DNA from: Psychroflexus sediminis | GTDB taxonomy: Bacteria; Bacteroidota; Bacteroidia; Flavobacteriales; Flavobacteriaceae | Assembly (NCBI RefSeq): GCF_900099815.1 | Contig: NZ_FNCW01000002.1 | Location: 124,001 to 188,000, forward strand | Length of the DNA: 64,000 nucleotides | Direction of reading: 5' to 3' | Shown: positions 10,203-16,274 of the stretch, piece after piece | How positions within the stretch are numbered: position 1 is the first letter of the stretch | How the letters are laid out: every line of letters begins with the position of its first letter | Made by a program: the position numbers and the translations under genes | The notes under the pieces: model-generated | What the model was told of the DNA's origin: nothing | The model's database searches: none | What the model saw: only the letters and a program-made list of their open reading frames with translations

Positions 10203-11357
10203 GTGAACTTCAGTTCTGACCCAGTTCATACACAGGAAAACTTAATCAATAAGTATTCTACCCAAACCAATTTGGTATATATTATTGTATTGCTTAGCCT
10301 TGTCGGGTTGTTGGTTTCCCTGCCTTTTATTAAAATAGATATCACTGCGCAAAGCAGAGGTATTGTAAGGAGTGAAATGGAAGATATTCCGCTTTTTTCT
10401 GTAGTAAGTGGAAGGATTGAATACATAGATCTTAAAAATAACCAACATGTCAATCTGGGTGATACTCTTCTTATCGTGGCCAAAGACATAATAGATGTCC
10501 AAAAAAAAATTCAGGAACAACTAAAGGATACTGATAGCCTGCTCTATGTAGATTATAATCACGCCATTAGTTCCCAAAAAGATTCTATTGAAACTACAAC
10601 TGTTCTGGAAGATTATATACAATATGAAGCCAGTCTAAATGAACTTAAAACCAGAGAAGAACAATCACGCGCTAACTTTAATCGATATAAAATTCTTTAT
10701 GAAAAAGGGGTGATTGCAAAAATGGAATACGAACACTATTTATACAAACTCCGCCAAGACCAGAGGGCCTTATCTGCTTTAAAAAAAAGGCAAATAGCCG
10801 ACTGGGAATTTCAGAAAAGAAACCTCCTTGAAAAACTTCAACAACAAAAAGGAAGTCTGGAAAGACTAGATGCTGAAGAAGAAAATTACTTTATCACTGC
10901 TCCAGAAAAAGGAACTATAGATCGTTTTGTCGGTTTACAGGAACATTCTTTTATTATGCCACAACAAGCTATAGCTTACTTGTCTCCAGACAACATATTA
11001 ATTGTAGAAAATATGGTAAGTCCTCGGGATATTGGACTTATCAAAATAGGACAAGAGGTGAAATTCCAGTTAGATGCTTTCAATTACAACCAATGGGGTC
11101 TCTTAACTGGTAAAGTATATGACATCGCTCAAAATGTGACTATCGAAAACGAAAAAGTGTTTTTTAGAGTTCGCTCAGAGTTAGACGAGACGACATTAAG
11201 CCTAAAAAACGGGTATGCCGCTTCTATAAGTAAAGGAATGACTCTTACCTCCAGGTTTATTATTACTGAAAGAAGTCTTTATGATTTGATTTTTGATAAA
11301 GTAGATGATTGGCTTAATCCAAAATTAATGACCCAATATGGCATCCTTACAAATTAA
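10203..11357 (+). CDS. HlyD-type membrane fusion protein of a peptide exporter
   Basis: This 384-residue protein starts with GTG. It has a cytoplasmic N-terminus, one membrane helix (LVYIIVLLSLVGLLVSLPFI), a lipoyl/barrel-sandwich half (SRGIVRSEMEDIPLFSVVSG and GDTLLIV), a coiled-coil hairpin (about residues 110-220) and the returning half (APEKGTIDRFVGLQEHSFI). This is the layout of adaptor proteins that bridge an inner-membrane ABC exporter to the outer membrane. It overlaps the C39-peptidase ABC transporter gene by 20 bases, so the two are co-translated and should work together exporting the double-glycine peptides encoded downstream. No outer-membrane TolC partner is present in the window. 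Confidence 0.88.
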   Translation: MNFSSDPVHTQENLINKYSTQTNLVYIIVLLSLVGLLVSLPFIKIDITAQSRGIVRSEMEDIPLFSVVSGRIEYIDLKNNQHVNLGDTLLIVAKDIIDVQKKIQEQLKDTDSLLYVDYNHAISSQKDSIETTTVLEDYIQYEASLNELKTREEQSRANFNRYKILYEKGVIAKMEYEHYLYKLRQDQRALSALKKRQIADWEFQKRNLLEKLQQQKGSLERLDAEEENYFITAPEKGTIDRFVGLQEHSFIMPQQAIAYLSPDNILIVENMVSPRDIGLIKIGQEVKFQLDAFNYNQWGLLTGKVYDIAQNVTIENEKVFFRVRSELDETTLSLKNGYAASISKGMTLTSRFIITERSLYDLIFDKVDDWLNPKLMTQYGILTN

Positions 11358-13497
11358 ACAACATGATATAAAAGACTGCGGAGCAGCTTGCTTAGCTTCT
11401 ATTGGCAACCATTATAACGTCAATCTGCCCATAGCTAGAATAAGACAAATCGCTCATACAGATAAACGTGGCACCAATGTTTTGGGCATGATAGAAGCTG
11501 CCGAAAAAATGGGCTTTACCGCAAAAGGGGTAAAAGGAGGGCTGGATGCTTTAGACCAAATACCTTTACCTGCTGTTGCTCATGTTGTTTTAAAAAATCA
11601 ACTGCAACATTATGTGGTTATCTATAAAGTTTCCCTGAAAGGGGAAGGGAAACTAAAAGTCATGGATCCTGGTCTTGGTAAGTTTAAAACCTATACTGCC
11701 AGGGAGTTTCAGGAAATATGGAGCGGAGTTCTCATTTTATTTGCCAAAAGCAACGACTTTAAAATCTATAATGAACAAATTTCACCCATCAAACGTTTTT
11801 ATGACTTAATACATCCTCATAAATCTATTCTTTTTCAGGCTTTATTTGGTGCTATTGTATTTACGCTTCTTGGATTAGCCATGTCTATTTATATTCAGAA
11901 AATAACGGACTATGTACTGGTTGAAGGCAATAGAAATTTATTGAATCTTTTGAGTTTTGGAATGATCGGGATTATTTTACTAAGGCTTTTTGTAGGAGCA
12001 TCCAAAAGTATAATTGTACTCAAAACAGGACAAATCATAGATACCAAACTTATTTTGGGATACTATAAGCACTTGCTCAAACTTCCACAAACCTTTTTTG
12101 ATACCATGCAGATTGGAGAAATCACTTCTCGGGTTAGCGATGCCGTAAAAATAAGAGCCTTTATAAACGATGTCGCCATAGATATGGTAGTCAACATCTT
12201 TATTGTGGTCTTTTCCTTTGGGCTGATGTTTACCTTTTACTGGAAACTGGCATTAGTCATCTTACTCGTCATCCCACTTTATATTATCATTTATGCCATC
12301 ATGAACTACTTCAACAAAAAGGTGGAACGGCGAATGATGGAAAATGCGGCTTCACTGGAAACGCAACTTGTGGAAAGTCTAAGCAATATAAGAACCGTAA
12401 AAGAATTTGGAATTGAAGGTTACTCTAATATTAAAACCGAAAACCGATTTGTAAAGCTATTATTTACCACCTATACCTCTGGATTAAACTCTGTATTTGC
12501 AGGTAGCTCCACACAGTTTATAGCGTCTATTTTTACGGTAATTTTGATGTGGGTGGGGGCAGGTTATGTGATTGACCAGGAAATTACCCCGGGAGAACTG
12601 TTCTCGTTTTATGCCTTAATAGGCTACTTTACAGGCCCTATCGCTTCGCTTATTGGCATGAACAAAACCATACAAAATGCCCTTATAGCTTCAGACCGTC
12701 TTTTTGAAATCATGGATTTGGAACGCGAGGAAACGACGCATAAATCCCATTTACCCAAAGAAGAAGTAGGCGATATTCGGTTTGAAAATGTAAGCTTTAG
12801 ATACGGTTCCAGGGTGCAAGTCTTTGAAAATTTCTCATGCCACTTCCCTAAAAATCAAACGACCGCCATCGTGGGTGAAAGCGGTTGCGGAAAAACGACA
12901 CTCATTTCTTTAATACAAGCCTTATATCCTCTAAAGGAAGGAAAAATTTATATAGGAAATTTTGACTTAAATTATGTAAGTAAAGAATCCTTAAGAAAAA
13001 GTATAGGTGTTATCCCGCAAGAACTCAAATTATTTACAGGAACAATTATAGAAAACATTGCTTTAGGTGAAGAATTCACCAACATGCAACGTGTTTTAAC
13101 TTTGTCTAAAGAGCTAGGGATAAATGAATTTGTAGAAAAACTACCCATGGGTTTTGAAACCCAGGTTGGGGAAAATGGAGCTATGCTTTCTGGCGGACAA
13201 AAACAACGTATAGCTATAGCACGTGCCTTATATAAAGATCCTGCTATTTTGCTTATGGACGAAGCTACTTCAGCGTTAGATACAACTTCAGAAGAAGTGG
13301 TACAAACTGCAATAGAAAATTTTAAAACCGATAATAAAACCGTTATAGTAATTGCTCACCGCTTAAGCACTATACAAAATGCAGACCGTATTTTGGTAAT
13401 GAAAGGCGGGGAAATAAAAGAAGAAGGAAATCACAAAGACTTAATAAGCTATAAAGGTTTGTACTATGAACTTTGGGAAAAACAAAGCTTAGTTTGA
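11338..13497 (+). CDS. Peptidase-containing ABC transporter (C39 peptidase, membrane domain, ATPase)
   Basis: This 719-residue bacteriocin-type exporter is a three-domain protein. The N-terminal C39 peptidase cuts after Gly-Gly in leader peptides: Cys14 (KDCGAACLAS), His91 (LQHYVVIY) and Asp110 (VMDPG) form its active site. A six-helix membrane domain follows (about 160-440), then an ATPase with Walker A GESGCGKTT, signature LSGGQKQR, Walker B AILLMDEATSAL and switch His IAHRLS. All catalytic residues are intact. It overlaps the adaptor gene upstream and its last 9 bases overlap the convergent XRE regulator gene. The substrate is most likely the peptide encoded at 14034. Confidence 0.96.
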   Translation: MASLQIKQHDIKDCGAACLASIGNHYNVNLPIARIRQIAHTDKRGTNVLGMIEAAEKMGFTAKGVKGGLDALDQIPLPAVAHVVLKNQLQHYVVIYKVSLKGEGKLKVMDPGLGKFKTYTAREFQEIWSGVLILFAKSNDFKIYNEQISPIKRFYDLIHPHKSILFQALFGAIVFTLLGLAMSIYIQKITDYVLVEGNRNLLNLLSFGMIGIILLRLFVGASKSIIVLKTGQIIDTKLILGYYKHLLKLPQTFFDTMQIGEITSRVSDAVKIRAFINDVAIDMVVNIFIVVFSFGLMFTFYWKLALVILLVIPLYIIIYAIMNYFNKKVERRMMENAASLETQLVESLSNIRTVKEFGIEGYSNIKTENRFVKLLFTTYTSGLNSVFAGSSTQFIASIFTVILMWVGAGYVIDQEITPGELFSFYALIGYFTGPIASLIGMNKTIQNALIASDRLFEIMDLEREETTHKSHLPKEEVGDIRFENVSFRYGSRVQVFENFSCHFPKNQTTAIVGESGCGKTTLISLIQALYPLKEGKIYIGNFDLNYVSKESLRKSIGVIPQELKLFTGTIIENIALGEEFTNMQRVLTLSKELGINEFVEKLPMGFETQVGENGAMLSGGQKQRIAIARALYKDPAILLMDEATSALDTTSEEVVQTAIENFKTDNKTVIVIAHRLSTIQNADRILVMKGGEIKEEGNHKDLISYKGLYYELWEKQSLV

Positions 13498-13884
13498 TAA
13501 GCGGAGTTGTTCTAGACTTAATTGTAATTCCCTGATGAGATGATCTTTATCTTTGATGCGCTCCTCATATAAATCAATAATTTTTAAAAGTTGGTCTTTG
13601 CTTTCTTGCTGAAAGCTGGGCATTCGTTGTAGGTATGCGGTAAGGTTTTCTTTACTGGCTTGGGTAAATTGGTATTTAATACCTGTTTCTAATAAGTCTT
13701 CAAGTTCTACTTCTAGGATCTCTGCAATTTTGAATAAACGCTCTACACTGAGTTTAGTTTGATTGCGTTCAATTTTAGAATAAGCAGCCTGACTTATATC
13801 TAAACAAATGGCCATATAATCATGTGAATAGTATTTATTCTTTCTTACACGTTCAATATTTTTTAACACCTTTATGATTTCCAT
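13489..13884 (-). CDS. XRE-family helix-turn-helix regulator
   Basis: This protein has about 131 residues. The N-terminal 70 form a Cro/CI-type HTH (KNIERVRKNKYYSHDYMAI, LDISQAAYSKIERNQTKLS, VERLFKIAEILEVELEDLLE). The C-terminal part is a charged helix, probably a coiled-coil dimerisation region (LLKIIDLYEERIKDKDHLIR). I start it at ATG 13884; a longer frame to 13944 would add a hydrophobic stretch unlike the family. The gene is convergent with the exporter and divergent from the double-glycine peptide gene, a position typical of a local regulator. Repeated AAAGTAATG motifs in the divergent intergenic region are candidate binding sites. Confidence 0.88.
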   Translation of the reverse strand: MEIIKVLKNIERVRKNKYYSHDYMAICLDISQAAYSKIERNQTKLSVERLFKIAEILEVELEDLLETGIKYQFTQASKENLTAYLQRMPSFQQESKDQLLKIIDLYEERIKDKDHLIRELQLSLEQLRLSN

Positions 13885-13904
13885 AAGTGATAAAGTTTTT
13901 ATTA

Positions 13905-13933
13905 AAAGTAATGAAATATTATATAAAGTAATG
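13905..13933. promoter_or_regulatory. Candidate operator: AAAGTAATG direct repeats
   Basis: AAAGTAATG occurs at 13905-13913 and again at 13925-13933, exactly 20 bases (about two helical turns) apart, between the XRE regulator and the peptide gene. AAAGTAAT also occurs at 14002-14009 and at 10123-10130 before the exporter operon. The motif is AT-rich, so chance is possible. Confidence 0.35.
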
Positions 13934-14033
13934 GAAGGCAACAAGTTAACCTTTTAATTTTATATTATCAAAATATCTCGAGAAAAACTTTTGATGCGAT
14001 TAAAGTAATTTATTAACTTAAATCTTAGAAATC

Positions 14034-14240
14034 ATGAATTTAAAAAATTTAAATGTGACTGAGCTGAGCACTCAGGAAGTTCAAGAAACTGAAGGAGGGT
14101 TTTTTGGAGAATGGGGCTCTGTCCTATTTGATCTTTATTATGGTAATGGTGCTGGTTGGGTACATTACAAATGTGGTGAAGCATGGAATAGAAGGCATAA
14201 TGATATAGATGCTTCGCTCAACACAGGCGTTCAAGCTTAA
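14034..14240 (+). CDS. Double-glycine leader peptide, bacteriocin-like precursor
   Basis: The 68-residue precursor has a classic leader: MNLKNLNVTELSTQEVQ, then ETEGG, with the conserved hydrophobic and acidic positions (L, ELS, QE) seen in substrates of C39-peptidase exporters. Cleavage after Gly-Gly would release a 46-residue, Gly- and aromatic-rich peptide beginning FFGEWGSVLFDLYYGNGAGW and holding a single Cys. There are no lanthipeptide or sactipeptide modification genes nearby, so an unmodified class II-like peptide is most likely; a signalling role is also possible. The gene is followed by its own strong terminator. It is the best candidate cargo of the exporter at 11338. Confidence 0.82.
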   Translation: MNLKNLNVTELSTQEVQETEGGFFGEWGSVLFDLYYGNGAGWVHYKCGEAWNRRHNDIDASLNTGVQA

Positions 14241-14264
14241 TTTTTTTAAATTGAATAAGGTTTG

Positions 14265-14310
14265 AAGCAATTTGGTTTTTGTTTTCCATACCAAATTGCT
14301 TTTTCTTTTT
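14265..14310 (+). terminator. Intrinsic terminator after the double-glycine peptide gene
   Basis: AAGCAATTTGGT (14265-14276) and ACCAAATTGCTT (14290-14301) form a perfect 12-base stem followed by T-rich sequence. Confidence 0.9.
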
Positions 14311-14366
14311 ACTCTTAATTTTTAATAGTTAAAATTCTATAATTATTTACTGGATTCTTCATTTAA

Positions 14367-15224
14367 ATGCCTTATAAAAATTCACATATTAAAGGTTGGG
14401 TCAGAGTTCTATTTGTCATAATAGCTTACCTTTTTGTAGGAAATGTGTTTAAATTAATAGGTGTTGTAGTGGCGGGTATTGATATGTATACACAATTTAA
14501 TCAAGCCACTATATTACAATTGCTCACAGTTACTTTTTTTGATTTTATAGGAATTGTAGCTGTTCTGTTTCTTTTTTTAAAAATAATTGATAAAGAGTCC
14601 TTTATCGGTATTGGATTATGTTTAAGAAATAGATCTGTTGATATTCTCATAGGGATATTAATAGGTTTCTTTACAATGAGTTTGGGTATATTAGCTTTGA
14701 TATCAATTGATGCTATAAGTTACAAAGGAGTCAATTTAGACCTATATGAACTATGCTATATGTTTTTTCTTTATATTATAGTTGCTCTAAAGGAGGAATT
14801 ATTGTATCGGGCTTATATTTTACGTAATTTGATGTATTCTTTCAACAAATATAAAGCCTTACTTATATCTGCTGTTTTGTTTGCTTTAATGCATAGTATG
14901 AATTCAAATTTATCTGTTTTAACATTTATAAATATTTTTTTAGGAGGGATTATGCTAGGGCTACCGTACATGTTAAATAAAAATTTATGGTTCCCAATAA
15001 CTCTTCATTTTAGTTGGAATTTTTTTCAATCTTTATTCGGTGTTAATGCTGGAGATGCCCCATATTCTTTATTTGTATTCCAGAAATCTGGAAGTGGCAT
15101 GATAAATATTGGTGAATCTTACTTTGAACAGCCTCTTTTGTTTACCCTGATGTATATGGTTTTGATTATCGCTATATATATCTGGTATCGTAAAAAGCAG
15201 GCTTCAACCCATGCAACAGAGTAA
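14367..15224 (+). CDS. CPBP family intramembrane metalloprotease
   Basis: This 285-residue protein has about seven or eight membrane helices and the three CPBP/Abi motifs: Glu143-Glu144 in KEELLYRAYILR (EExxxR), His176 in FALMHSMN, and His214 with Asn218 in HFSWNFFQS. Members of this family cleave prenylated proteins in eukaryotes; in bacteria they often sit in bacteriocin loci, where some act in immunity or peptide maturation. Its position between the double-glycine peptide and a run of small membrane peptides supports such a role here, but this is inference from context. Its last 14 bases overlap a small ORF at 15211. Confidence 0.9.
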   Translation: MPYKNSHIKGWVRVLFVIIAYLFVGNVFKLIGVVVAGIDMYTQFNQATILQLLTVTFFDFIGIVAVLFLFLKIIDKESFIGIGLCLRNRSVDILIGILIGFFTMSLGILALISIDAISYKGVNLDLYELCYMFFLYIIVALKEELLYRAYILRNLMYSFNKYKALLISAVLFALMHSMNSNLSVLTFINIFLGGIMLGLPYMLNKNLWFPITLHFSWNFFQSLFGVNAGDAPYSLFVFQKSGSGMINIGESYFEQPLLFTLMYMVLIIAIYIWYRKKQASTHATE

Positions 15225-15366
15225 AAATTATCTAAGAACGATTAATATTCAAAATGATGATACATTATTCAAGAGTGTTGAGGTAAAAATTCTTATCTAT
15301 TTGATTATGTATGTTCTTAAAGATTTAGACTCGGTCCAAAAATTTTTAGCTTGGTTGGTTTTATAA
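15211..15366 (+). CDS. Small ORF A, 51 residues, overlapping the CPBP gene end
   Basis: The ATG lies 14 bases inside the end of the CPBP gene in another frame, which suggests translational coupling. The product begins MQQSKNYLRTINIQNDD and has a C-terminal hydrophobic part (KILIYLIMYVLKDL, then SVQKFLAWLVL). The region from 15284 to 15367 is repeated at 15622-15710 with a mix of silent and conservative codon changes, as expected for coding DNA. A 4-base deletion relative to the second copy (near 15348) changes the frame and ends this product early after LAWLVL. No known family is recognised. Confidence 0.45.
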   Translation: MQQSKNYLRTINIQNDDTLFKSVEVKILIYLIMYVLKDLDSVQKFLAWLVL

Positions 15367-15432: not shown

Positions 15433-15534
15433 ATGTTTAAGAAATCGGAAAGTTTTCTAATTTTATTATCAATTCTGTTAATAAGCTTATTGATAATCTA
15501 TACTTTAGGTAAGTACTTGGGCCGATATTTATAG
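15433..15534 (+). CDS. Small ORF B, single-helix peptide with YxLGKxLG tail
   Basis: This ORF of 33 residues has a short polar start (MFKKSES), one hydrophobic helix (FLILLSILLISLLII) and the tail YTLGKYLGRYL. The tail matches those of small ORFs D and E and of the degenerate double-glycine peptide at 15907. It includes a GxxxG motif (GKYLG), of the sort that packs helices in two-peptide bacteriocins and in membrane-helix dimers. There is no signal peptide cleavage site or double-glycine leader. The shared tail in several adjacent frames is the reason to call it a gene. It could be a partner, immunity or toxin-like membrane peptide. Confidence 0.5.
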   Translation: MFKKSESFLILLSILLISLLIIYTLGKYLGRYL

Positions 15535-15645
15535 GGTCTACGATTTTAAATTATTAATGAAATCGAACAGAATTCTAGCCTATAACTTTAAAAAGTGATG
15601 TGCTTATTTAACTTATCTGCATAAAAATATCTTATCTACTTGATT

Positions 15646-15762
15646 ATGTATGTTCTTAAAGAGTTAGACTCGGTTCAAAATTTTTTAGCCTATTTGGTTG
15701 GTTTTATAACGGATATACGGGATGGAGTTTTAGAAGCGATCGAAGAACATAATTCAAATTAA
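15646..15762 (+). CDS. Small ORF C, 38 residues, duplicated copy of ORF A region
   Basis: It begins MYVLKELDSVQNFLAYLVGF and ends ITDIRDGVLEAIEEHNSN. Compared with ORF A it keeps the hydrophobic YVLK.LDSVQ.FLA segment but reads on through the point where ORF A is frame-shifted, giving an amphipathic acidic end. An in-frame TTG at 15640 could extend it by two residues. It lies 6 bases before small ORF D, so the two may be co-translated. No family is recognised. Coding support comes from the conserved frame between the two copies. Confidence 0.45.
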   Translation: MYVLKELDSVQNFLAYLVGFITDIRDGVLEAIEEHNSN

Positions 15763-15768
15763 AAAGTT

Positions 15769-15906
15769 ATGACAAGAGAACAGATTAAACCATTAATTTA
15801 CCTATTATCAAGCATTTTAGGGATATTATTATATTTAAGTATAGCGGATATATCATATGATTTTGGTAAAGAACTAGGGGTTTATTTATGCTCTCTCCAA
15901 AAGTAA
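15769..15906 (+). CDS. Small ORF D, single-helix peptide with YDFGKELG tail
   Basis: This ORF of 45 residues begins MTREQIKPLIYLLSSILGIL, continues as a membrane helix, and carries ISYDFGKELGVYL before a short end CSLQK. The ISYxxGKxLG segment aligns with ORF B, ORF E and the double-glycine remnant that follows. The final CSLQK goes beyond where ORF B stops, and the stop codon is in the same frame as the peptide remnant at 15907, so a deletion may have fused the end of ORF D to the lost start of that gene. It follows ORF C after 6 bases. Confidence 0.5.
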   Translation: MTREQIKPLIYLLSSILGILLYLSIADISYDFGKELGVYLCSLQK

Positions 15907-16080
15907 AAATGTGTTTATAAATCAAATGCAACTGAGCTTACTCAGCAAGAACAAAGGAATATTAATGGAGGTGCTTGGTGGATAGTTGTAGCAGCTTGCA
16001 TAACTGCAGTTAATGAATTAGGTGATATTGCCTACAATATAGGATACGACATAGGTGAGTCTATGGTTAAAAATCAATAG
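15907..16080 (+). pseudogene. Double-glycine bacteriocin-like peptide lacking a start codon
   Basis: This open frame encodes a leader-like stretch KSNATELTQQEQRNINGG followed by a core AWWIVVAACITAVNELGDIA, then YNIGYDIGESMVKNQ. The leader resembles that of the peptide at 14034 (NVTELSTQE...GG). The core has a hydrophobic helix and the same Y-x-I-G-x-x-I-G tail as the small ORFs around it, as in class IIb-type peptides. No ATG, GTG or TTG lies between the stop of ORF D (same frame, 15904-15906) and the leader, so it looks inactivated at its 5' end unless read-through or a rare start is used. An inverted repeat ATACCGT/ACGGTAT (16088-16118) follows. Confidence 0.6.
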
Positions 16081-16142
16081 TTTTATTATACCGTAATAAT
16101 GAGAAGTTACAACGGTATGTTTTAACATTAATAAATTTAATT

Positions 16143-16274
16143 ATGGAAGTGAAATTTGATTCTATTTATGAAACTGTTCTATTTTATATTTTTGTTCTGA
16201 TAATTCTTATTAATTCGATCGGTAACATTATGTATGAATTAGGAAAAACATTGGGGAGAGGCTTAATAGATTAG
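16143..16274 (+). CDS. Small ORF E, single-helix peptide with YELGKTLGR tail
   Basis: This ORF of 43 residues begins MEVKFDSIYETVLFYIFVLI, continues with a hydrophobic helix, and ends GNIMYELGKTLGRGLID. The tail is closest to ORF B (YTLGKYLGRYL) and ORF D (YDFGKELGVYL). It has no double-glycine leader, so it would not be a C39 substrate; it may insert in the membrane directly. A terminator-like repeat follows 46 bases after its stop. It is the last recognisable member of the small-peptide run. No database family is recognised by eye. Confidence 0.5.
   Translation: MEVKFDSIYETVLFYIFVLIILINSIGNIMYELGKTLGRGLID

Follow-up and report, generated by a model that had tools for sequence, protein, structure and literature searches.

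Leaderless one-helix peptides resembling neighbouring double-glycine bacteriocins: candidate immunity peptides at C39-exporter loci of Psychroflexus sediminis and other Bacteroidota

CbnZ, the tested immunity protein of carnobacteriocin XY, is a peptide of 42 aa with one transmembrane domain in N-in/C-out orientation; its gene lies immediately downstream of cbnXY and gives 250-fold protection in trans (PMC6957408). The mechanism of CbnZ immunity is termed a mystery in the same report, whose abstract, introduction, results and discussion make no mention of a likeness between CbnZ and its bacteriocin (PMC6957408). Similar to the Bacteroidota peptides described here, CbnZ is tiny, has one helix and is encoded just downstream of peptides with a double-glycine (GG) leader. 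Its demonstrated N-in/C-out topology would be compatible with the charge bias of the Bacteroidota peptides, in which K and R are more frequent ahead of the helix. In contrast to them, it comes from a Gram-positive host and bears a weak likeness to its bacteriocin peptide CbnX.

Other known systems can be compared with the peptides found in the 64 kb of Psychroflexus sediminis DNA that we analysed (hereafter the window). As far as described in the available text (PMC8538875), the Abi/CPBP proteins PlnI, PlnL and SkkI also provide membrane immunity against two-peptide bacteriocins, but they are large multi-helix putative proteases, whereas the window peptides are 33-45 aa long with one helix. 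Class IIb microcin immunity peptides are also small, TM-bearing and encoded beside GG/GA-leader toxins, in Gram-negatives; the description available includes no likeness between toxin and immunity peptide, and it is by this description only that we set them apart (PMC11634061). Bacteroidetocins of the Bacteroidota are likewise GG-leader peptides exported by C39 transporters; according to the portion of the report available, they inhibit their own producers, and no immunity protein could be identified (PMC6671954). In a search for other published short immunity proteins, the ABP-118 alpha core found nothing in the plasmid collection, and CbnZ alone was therefore compared. In phage holin/antiholin pairs, the killer is inhibited by a variant form of its own membrane helix. 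This is a functional comparison only, and no phage genes are involved in the case of the leaderless peptides. Our searches of openly licensed papers turned up no account of an immunity peptide whose tail imitates that of its bacteriocin, and an earlier one elsewhere is possible.

The locus studied here is organized around a C39-peptidase ABC exporter (Table 1), which scored 515.4 bits against NCBIfam TIGR01193, slightly under the cut-off of 523.85. A small helix-turn-helix-like regulator (13489-13944, minus strand; domain judged by eye) faces the peptide genes. The core of the first GG-leader peptide contains YYGNGAGWVHYKCGEAW and a single cysteine. This stretch resembles the YGNG box of class IIa, the pediocin-like bacteriocins of Gram-positives. 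Pfam and NCBIfam searches with this peptide up to E 1 gave no match. Large immunity proteins against bacteriocins are usually CPBP membrane proteases, and it may be the one at 14367 that actually confers immunity at the window locus. The frames at 15211-15366 and 15640-15762, partial copies less than 450 bp apart, are possibly decayed immunity cassettes.

Table 1. Coordinates of the exporter, its neighbours and the small peptide frames in the window
Feature	Coordinates	Strand	Basis or remarks
HlyD-type periplasmic adaptor of exporter	10203..11357	+	Pfam HlyD_3 1e-12
C39-peptidase ABC exporter, cuts GG leaders	11338..13497	+	Pfam Peptidase_C39 3e-34, ABC_membrane 7e-50, ABC_tran 1.5e-31
GG-leader peptide, 68 aa, YGNG in core	14034..14240	+	ORF and leader judged by eye
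CPBP (Abi/Rce1-like) membrane protease	14367..15224	+	Pfam Rce1-like 2.3e-19
Small frame, partial copy of 15640-15762	15211..15366	+	translations have YLIMYVLK-LDSVQ-FLA in common
Leaderless one-helix peptide 1, 33 aa, tail YTLGKYLGRYL	15433..15534	+	ATG ORF
Doubtful gene starting at TTG, 40 aa, the longer copy of the small frame 15211-15366	15640..15762	+	
Leaderless one-helix peptide 2, 45 aa, tail SYDFGKELGVYL	15769..15906	+	ATG ORF
GG-leader bacteriocin frame, startless here	15907..16080	+	core 15973-16077, tail AYNIGYDIGESM
Leaderless one-helix peptide 3, 43 aa, tail MYELGKTLGRGL	16143..16274	+	ATG ORF

A preliminary description of this DNA had pointed to four neighbouring frames with alike tails, each including a GxxxG, and all four were confirmed, at 15433, 15769, 15907 and 16143. 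The three leaderless peptides each consist of one hydrophobic segment and a Y-x-h-G-x-x-h-G tail, where h is I, L, V, M, F or A. Six-frame translation of the whole window (127,996 codons) contains seven occurrences of this motif, and four of these are the frames in question (at 15499, 15856, 16033 and 16233, all on the plus strand). The claim that only the third frame bears a GG leader was correct in that the leader is present there and absent from the other three, but the frame is startless in this genome. It opens at 15907 in the reading frame of the 15769 ORF, right behind the stop codon of that ORF, and no ATG, GTG or TTG was found ahead of the GG in 15907-16080. The leader-bearing peptide is therefore an incomplete ORF here. 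It scored 21.0 bits (E 2.2e-4) against TIGR03949 (class IIb bacteriocin, lactobin A/cerein 7B), under the cut-off of 21.5, in an alignment that spans the leader and GG.

The 15769 and 16143 tails score higher with the third-frame core than with any unrelated GG core of the pool. The tail of 15433 was not significant against the third-frame core, with 18% of unrelated cores scoring as high; it aligns well with the 15769 and 16143 peptides. The 16143 gene is downstream of the matching core frame, and 15433 and 15769 are upstream of it. Searches of 24 leaderless peptides, three of them from the window, against Pfam, NCBIfam and PHROGs gave no significant profile match; the best E values were 0.03, 0.022 and 0.017, respectively, with at most two members per matched family. 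The preliminary description had named no fitting family, but CbnZ, which has the same build, had already been described.

Within the genus, the exporter was found in two of the 27 genomes searched, namely the window's own and that of P. curvus (G151, locus L018), and the two transporters are 95% identical. The P. curvus locus retains all four frames, and the leader-bearing gene there has an ATG (L018:8092-8283). A one-nucleotide length difference lies just upstream of this frame, and the DNA of its core differs at only 3 of 159 positions, so its startlessness in the window is either a recent change or a sequencing error. Between the window and P. curvus, the four frames taken together had a pN/pS of 0.34 (12 synonymous and 15 non-synonymous differences; Fisher p = 0.006), and each leaderless peptide had a lower pN than pS (0.039 and 0.092 for 15433-15534, 0.060 and 0.212 for 15769-15906, 0.039 and 0.110 for 16143-16274). 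The frames are neither lost nor unconstrained in this relative; loss, or breakage with no codon-level constraint, is what the preliminary description had named as grounds for abandoning its reading. Their conservation together with this ratio indicates that they are real coding sequence, and the possibility that all four are chance ORFs was rejected. The regulator also has a P. curvus counterpart (L018:5439-5891). The stretch that separates the exporter from the four frames differs between the two genomes in its GG peptides and its CPBP-like gene (L018:5984-6864 against 14034-15224 of the window). In the first half of the P. curvus locus, there are two GG peptides other than that of the window, the CPBP-like ORF is shorter, and a leaderless one-helix peptide of 45 aa is present as well. 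The sequence comparison suggests that toxin and immunity cassettes have been exchanged at this locus.

With the aim of sampling similar loci, the CPBP gene was tried as a search anchor (present in 8 of 149 family genomes). It led mostly to loci that by eye looked unrelated to bacteriocins, with GG peptides in L024 and L026, and the C39 exporter was taken as the anchor instead. Among 397 family genomes, 32 had an exporter match at E <= 1e-150, giving 29 regions besides L018-L026; among 395 order genomes, 23 had a match, giving 17 more regions. The best 80 named loci of a longer list from GTDB genomes were added. L024, in which no exporter was found, was dropped, and removal of 9 duplicates from 129 loci left a first set of 120. 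Since the ORF and leader rules were set after inspection of these loci, the first set is not blind. A hold-out was then processed with frozen rules. It began as 100 further loci, of which 20 were dropped as duplicates (exporter DNA identity 97%), and the remaining 80 partly share genera with the first set. The combined set comprises 200 C39-exporter loci, 171 of them with a GG peptide, and 454 GG peptides in all.

Test ORFs were leaderless, began with ATG, contained a hydrophobic segment and lay on the exporter's strand. The C-terminal 28 residues of each were scored with the GG cores found at the same locus, and the best score was ranked against unrelated cores from other loci. In the first set, 22/110 ORFs reached p<0.05 and 12/110 reached p<0.01, with 11 outscoring all unrelated cores; the antisense ORFs gave 3/44 and 0/44. 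The hold-out gave 11/69 and 7/69, all seven of the latter outscoring every unrelated core, as compared to 1/31 and 0/31 antisense. Among ORFs of the combined set lying no more than 300 bp from a GG peptide, the counts were 28/78 at p<0.05 and 19/78 at p<0.01, where permutation gave means of 3.29 and 0.73 and maxima of 9 and 4 (200 permutations). Own-locus tail likeness recurs among small ORFs near C39 exporters of Bacteroidota, which is where the preliminary description had advised a search. At 300-1500 bp the counts at the two thresholds were 4/67 and 1/67, and beyond 3000 bp on the same strand 8/105 and 3/105. Antisense ORFs gave 3/68 and 0/68 within 1500 bp, and 4/111 and 1/111 beyond 3000 bp. 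Composition-shuffled tails of the near set gave 9/78 and 1/78, and the weaker signal is therefore owed in part to composition. Taken together, the distance, antisense and shuffle controls restrict the signal to nearby same-strand ORFs and show it to depend mostly on residue order.

For a closer look at the likeness, we considered 31 pairs of a leaderless peptide (the copy) and its matched core, namely the 33 rows at p<0.05 from the first set and hold-out minus two longer than 56 aa (L089, L218). Some of the 31 carry caveats: one L033 row, which starts MKQTGGG, probably represents a core whose leader is cut, L077 falls in a longer, different-looking group, and L221 and L032 are more than 1200 bp from their cores. 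The copies, none longer than 56 aa, lie downstream of the matched core in 29/31 pairs. Counting upstream from the copy, the matched core is encoded by the first GG gene in 14 pairs, by the second in 12 and by the third in one. Alignments end no more than five residues from the C-terminus in 27/31 copies and 23/31 cores, and a GxxxG occurs within the last 24 residues of 25/31 copies as compared to 4/240 antisense TM ORFs. The [YF]-x-h-G-x-x-h-G tail was found in 22/101 near ORFs, 9/67 at 300-1500 bp, 3/101 beyond 3000 bp and 1/221 antisense. No leader-like stretch lies in frame upstream of any copy (0/31). In 11/11 homologous pairs, pN/pS was below 1 (0.12-0.66, pooled 0.375), although these pairs were picked by protein similarity, which lowers the ratio. 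Copy helices contain less Gly+Ala than core helices (0.14 against 0.33; lower in 27/31) and are more hydrophobic, the latter being weak evidence as the copies were selected for hydropathy. The copies average 2.65 K/R before the helix and 1.55 after it, which is a charge bias only.

Several pairs illustrate the likeness. The leaderless tail IGYEFGKDIYHILN lies beside the core AGYTVGKDLYHLMN in L035, and WNDFISGISGGI beside WDGFKAGISGGI in L034. In Flavobacterium amniphilum (L085) the tail FEFGENYGRTLA is found beside the core FEKGEAYGRSLA, and in a Cruoricaptor MAG (L105) GYAIGKFMAHWENSK beside GYAIGKFHAHSENNK, with the stretch GYAIGKF-AH-EN-K in common. In Zobellia (L127), GYVDAR of the leaderless peptide lies beside GYRDAR of the core. 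A second type of leaderless tail, W/N-x-x-F/h-x-x-G-h-x-x-G (for example ILKNWNDFISGISGGI), was observed in L034, L018:7104-7241, L227, L251 and L152, and these peptides adjoin GG cores that end in DW-x-x-hK-x-G.

The paper on CbnZ prints no sequence. From length, place and build, we infer that CbnZ is the product of L253:2816-2944 (+), the sole 42-aa plus-strand ORF just downstream of two GG peptides on a Carnobacterium plasmid. This presumed cbnZ is absent from the plasmid gene tables of NZ_CP016845.1 / NZ_LN846932.1, where the table is incomplete. The presumed CbnZ ends in AMFIGRSIGSLF, with the tail pattern h-x-h-G-R-x-h-G. Its 28-residue tail scored 28 against CbnX, which is reached by 2.4% of the 454 unrelated Bacteroidota cores, and 17 against CbnY, which is reached by 63% of unrelated cores. 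With two cores tried, the likeness of the putative CbnZ to CbnX is weak and at most suggestive. Tails of the window peptides and CbnZ gave raw, uncalibrated local scores of 19-24. A tblastn search of 72,556 plasmids with CbnZ found nothing above chance level outside Carnobacterium.

Based on these observations, we consider it probable that the leaderless peptides are dedicated immunity peptides of the exported GG bacteriocins and act by resembling the toxin. The observed basis is the common tail, the own-locus specificity, the gene order, the lack of a leader and the purifying selection, whereas expression, topology, protection and the choice of mechanism are what we infer. The preliminary description had suggested that exported peptides are the ancestors or partners of the leaderless ones, which would perhaps be immunity or decoy helices, a view favoured by the own-locus test and the downstream position as well as by purifying selection. 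The anatomy of CbnZ, which matches that of the leaderless peptides, likewise favours this view. In the arrangement we envisage, the copy begins with a short N-terminus in the cytoplasm, continues as a single, strongly hydrophobic helix and ends in a tail; this tail, and often the helix register too, reproduces that of the core whose gene lies one or two places upstream. Without a leader, the copy would stay in the producer's inner membrane with its tail in the periplasm, and an incoming core would meet its own likeness there. The core's GxxxG helix could then pack against the copy, which would block the killing complex in the manner of a dominant-negative subunit; alternatively, the copy may already sit at the toxin's docking site on a membrane target. 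We regard the dominant-negative subunit as slightly more likely than occupancy of the docking site. Pairs alike in both helix and tail (L034, L165, L204) would favour joint assembly, and pairs alike only in the last 15-18 residues (L035, L105) would favour occupancy of a surface site.

A further possibility is that the peptides do confer immunity but their common tail is incidental, being a generic membrane-helix end while protection is achieved by other means. GxxxG and Y/F-x-h-G are indeed common helix-packing and interface patterns, the likeness of CbnZ to CbnX is weak, and 50/78 near ORFs miss p<0.05, which counts against immunity by resemblance. The same goes for the startless matching core of the window, for the CPBP protease at 14367 and for the 3/105 same-strand ORFs beyond 3000 bp that reach p<0.01. 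The unmatched leaderless peptides may be orphan immunity genes against toxins no longer present. In L067 there is a close relative of the L191 copy, yet the two listed GG cores of L067 look unlike that peptide by eye, and the window, with three leaderless peptides and a startless core, fits the orphan-immunity picture. We consider an incidental tail unlikely, as the core of the own locus is preferred over unrelated cores with similar helices, and some pairs have long specific stretches in common, such as that of L105.

Two-peptide bacteriocins pair via GxxxG helices, and the leaderless peptides could thus be part of the weapon, reaching the target by another route to complete a multi-peptide bacteriocin. 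Leaderless bacteriocins do exist (PMC8538875). Against such a role, many loci already have two GG peptides, and the copy helices are Gly+Ala-poorer and (partly by ORF selection) more hydrophobic, as would be expected of a retained anchor. In addition, the C39 exporter requires a GG leader. Taking this evidence together, we find a weapon component distinctly improbable. It is similarly improbable that the peptides are helpers of export or regulation that dock by their tail on the exporter or precursor, for example to keep the core inactive before export. Such helpers would be expected to adjoin the exporter and to be specific for their own core, as the leaderless peptides are, but CbnZ, with the same build, protects cells without bacteriocin genes (as reported in the available text of PMC6957408), and the predicted N-in/C-out topology places the tail opposite to the precursor's side. 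Functionless decay of duplicated bacteriocin genes, which the startless bacteriocin frame and the repeated small frame of the window locus might suggest, was rejected as the main reading and is very unlikely given the pN/pS of 0.34 for the window frames, ratios below 1 in 11/11 pairs elsewhere (pairs chosen by protein similarity), leader remnants in 0/31 copies and the recurrence of the same design across several families.

In conclusion, immunity by resemblance to the toxin remains our preferred explanation of the leaderless peptides. Tiny one-helix immunity proteins as such are already known from CbnZ. More tentatively, toxin and immunity peptide may be built on the same helix and co-diverge across Bacteroidota, and perhaps in the CbnZ type of Gram-positives too, such that a leaderless copy kept in the membrane protects against pore-forming GG bacteriocins; this generalization is plausible, and we are well short of certain of it. 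If the smallest bacteriocin immunity proteins are copies of the toxin's own membrane end, their mode of protection becomes testable with point mutants. Sequence alone would then suffice to find immunity genes and to assign each to its toxin, with one sequence predicting the other, and annotation would gain a class of genes of about 30-55 aa that are invisible to the profile libraries tried. For the Bacteroidota, in which immunity to exported GG peptides is largely undescribed in the text available to us, such peptides would provide a simple means of self-protection.
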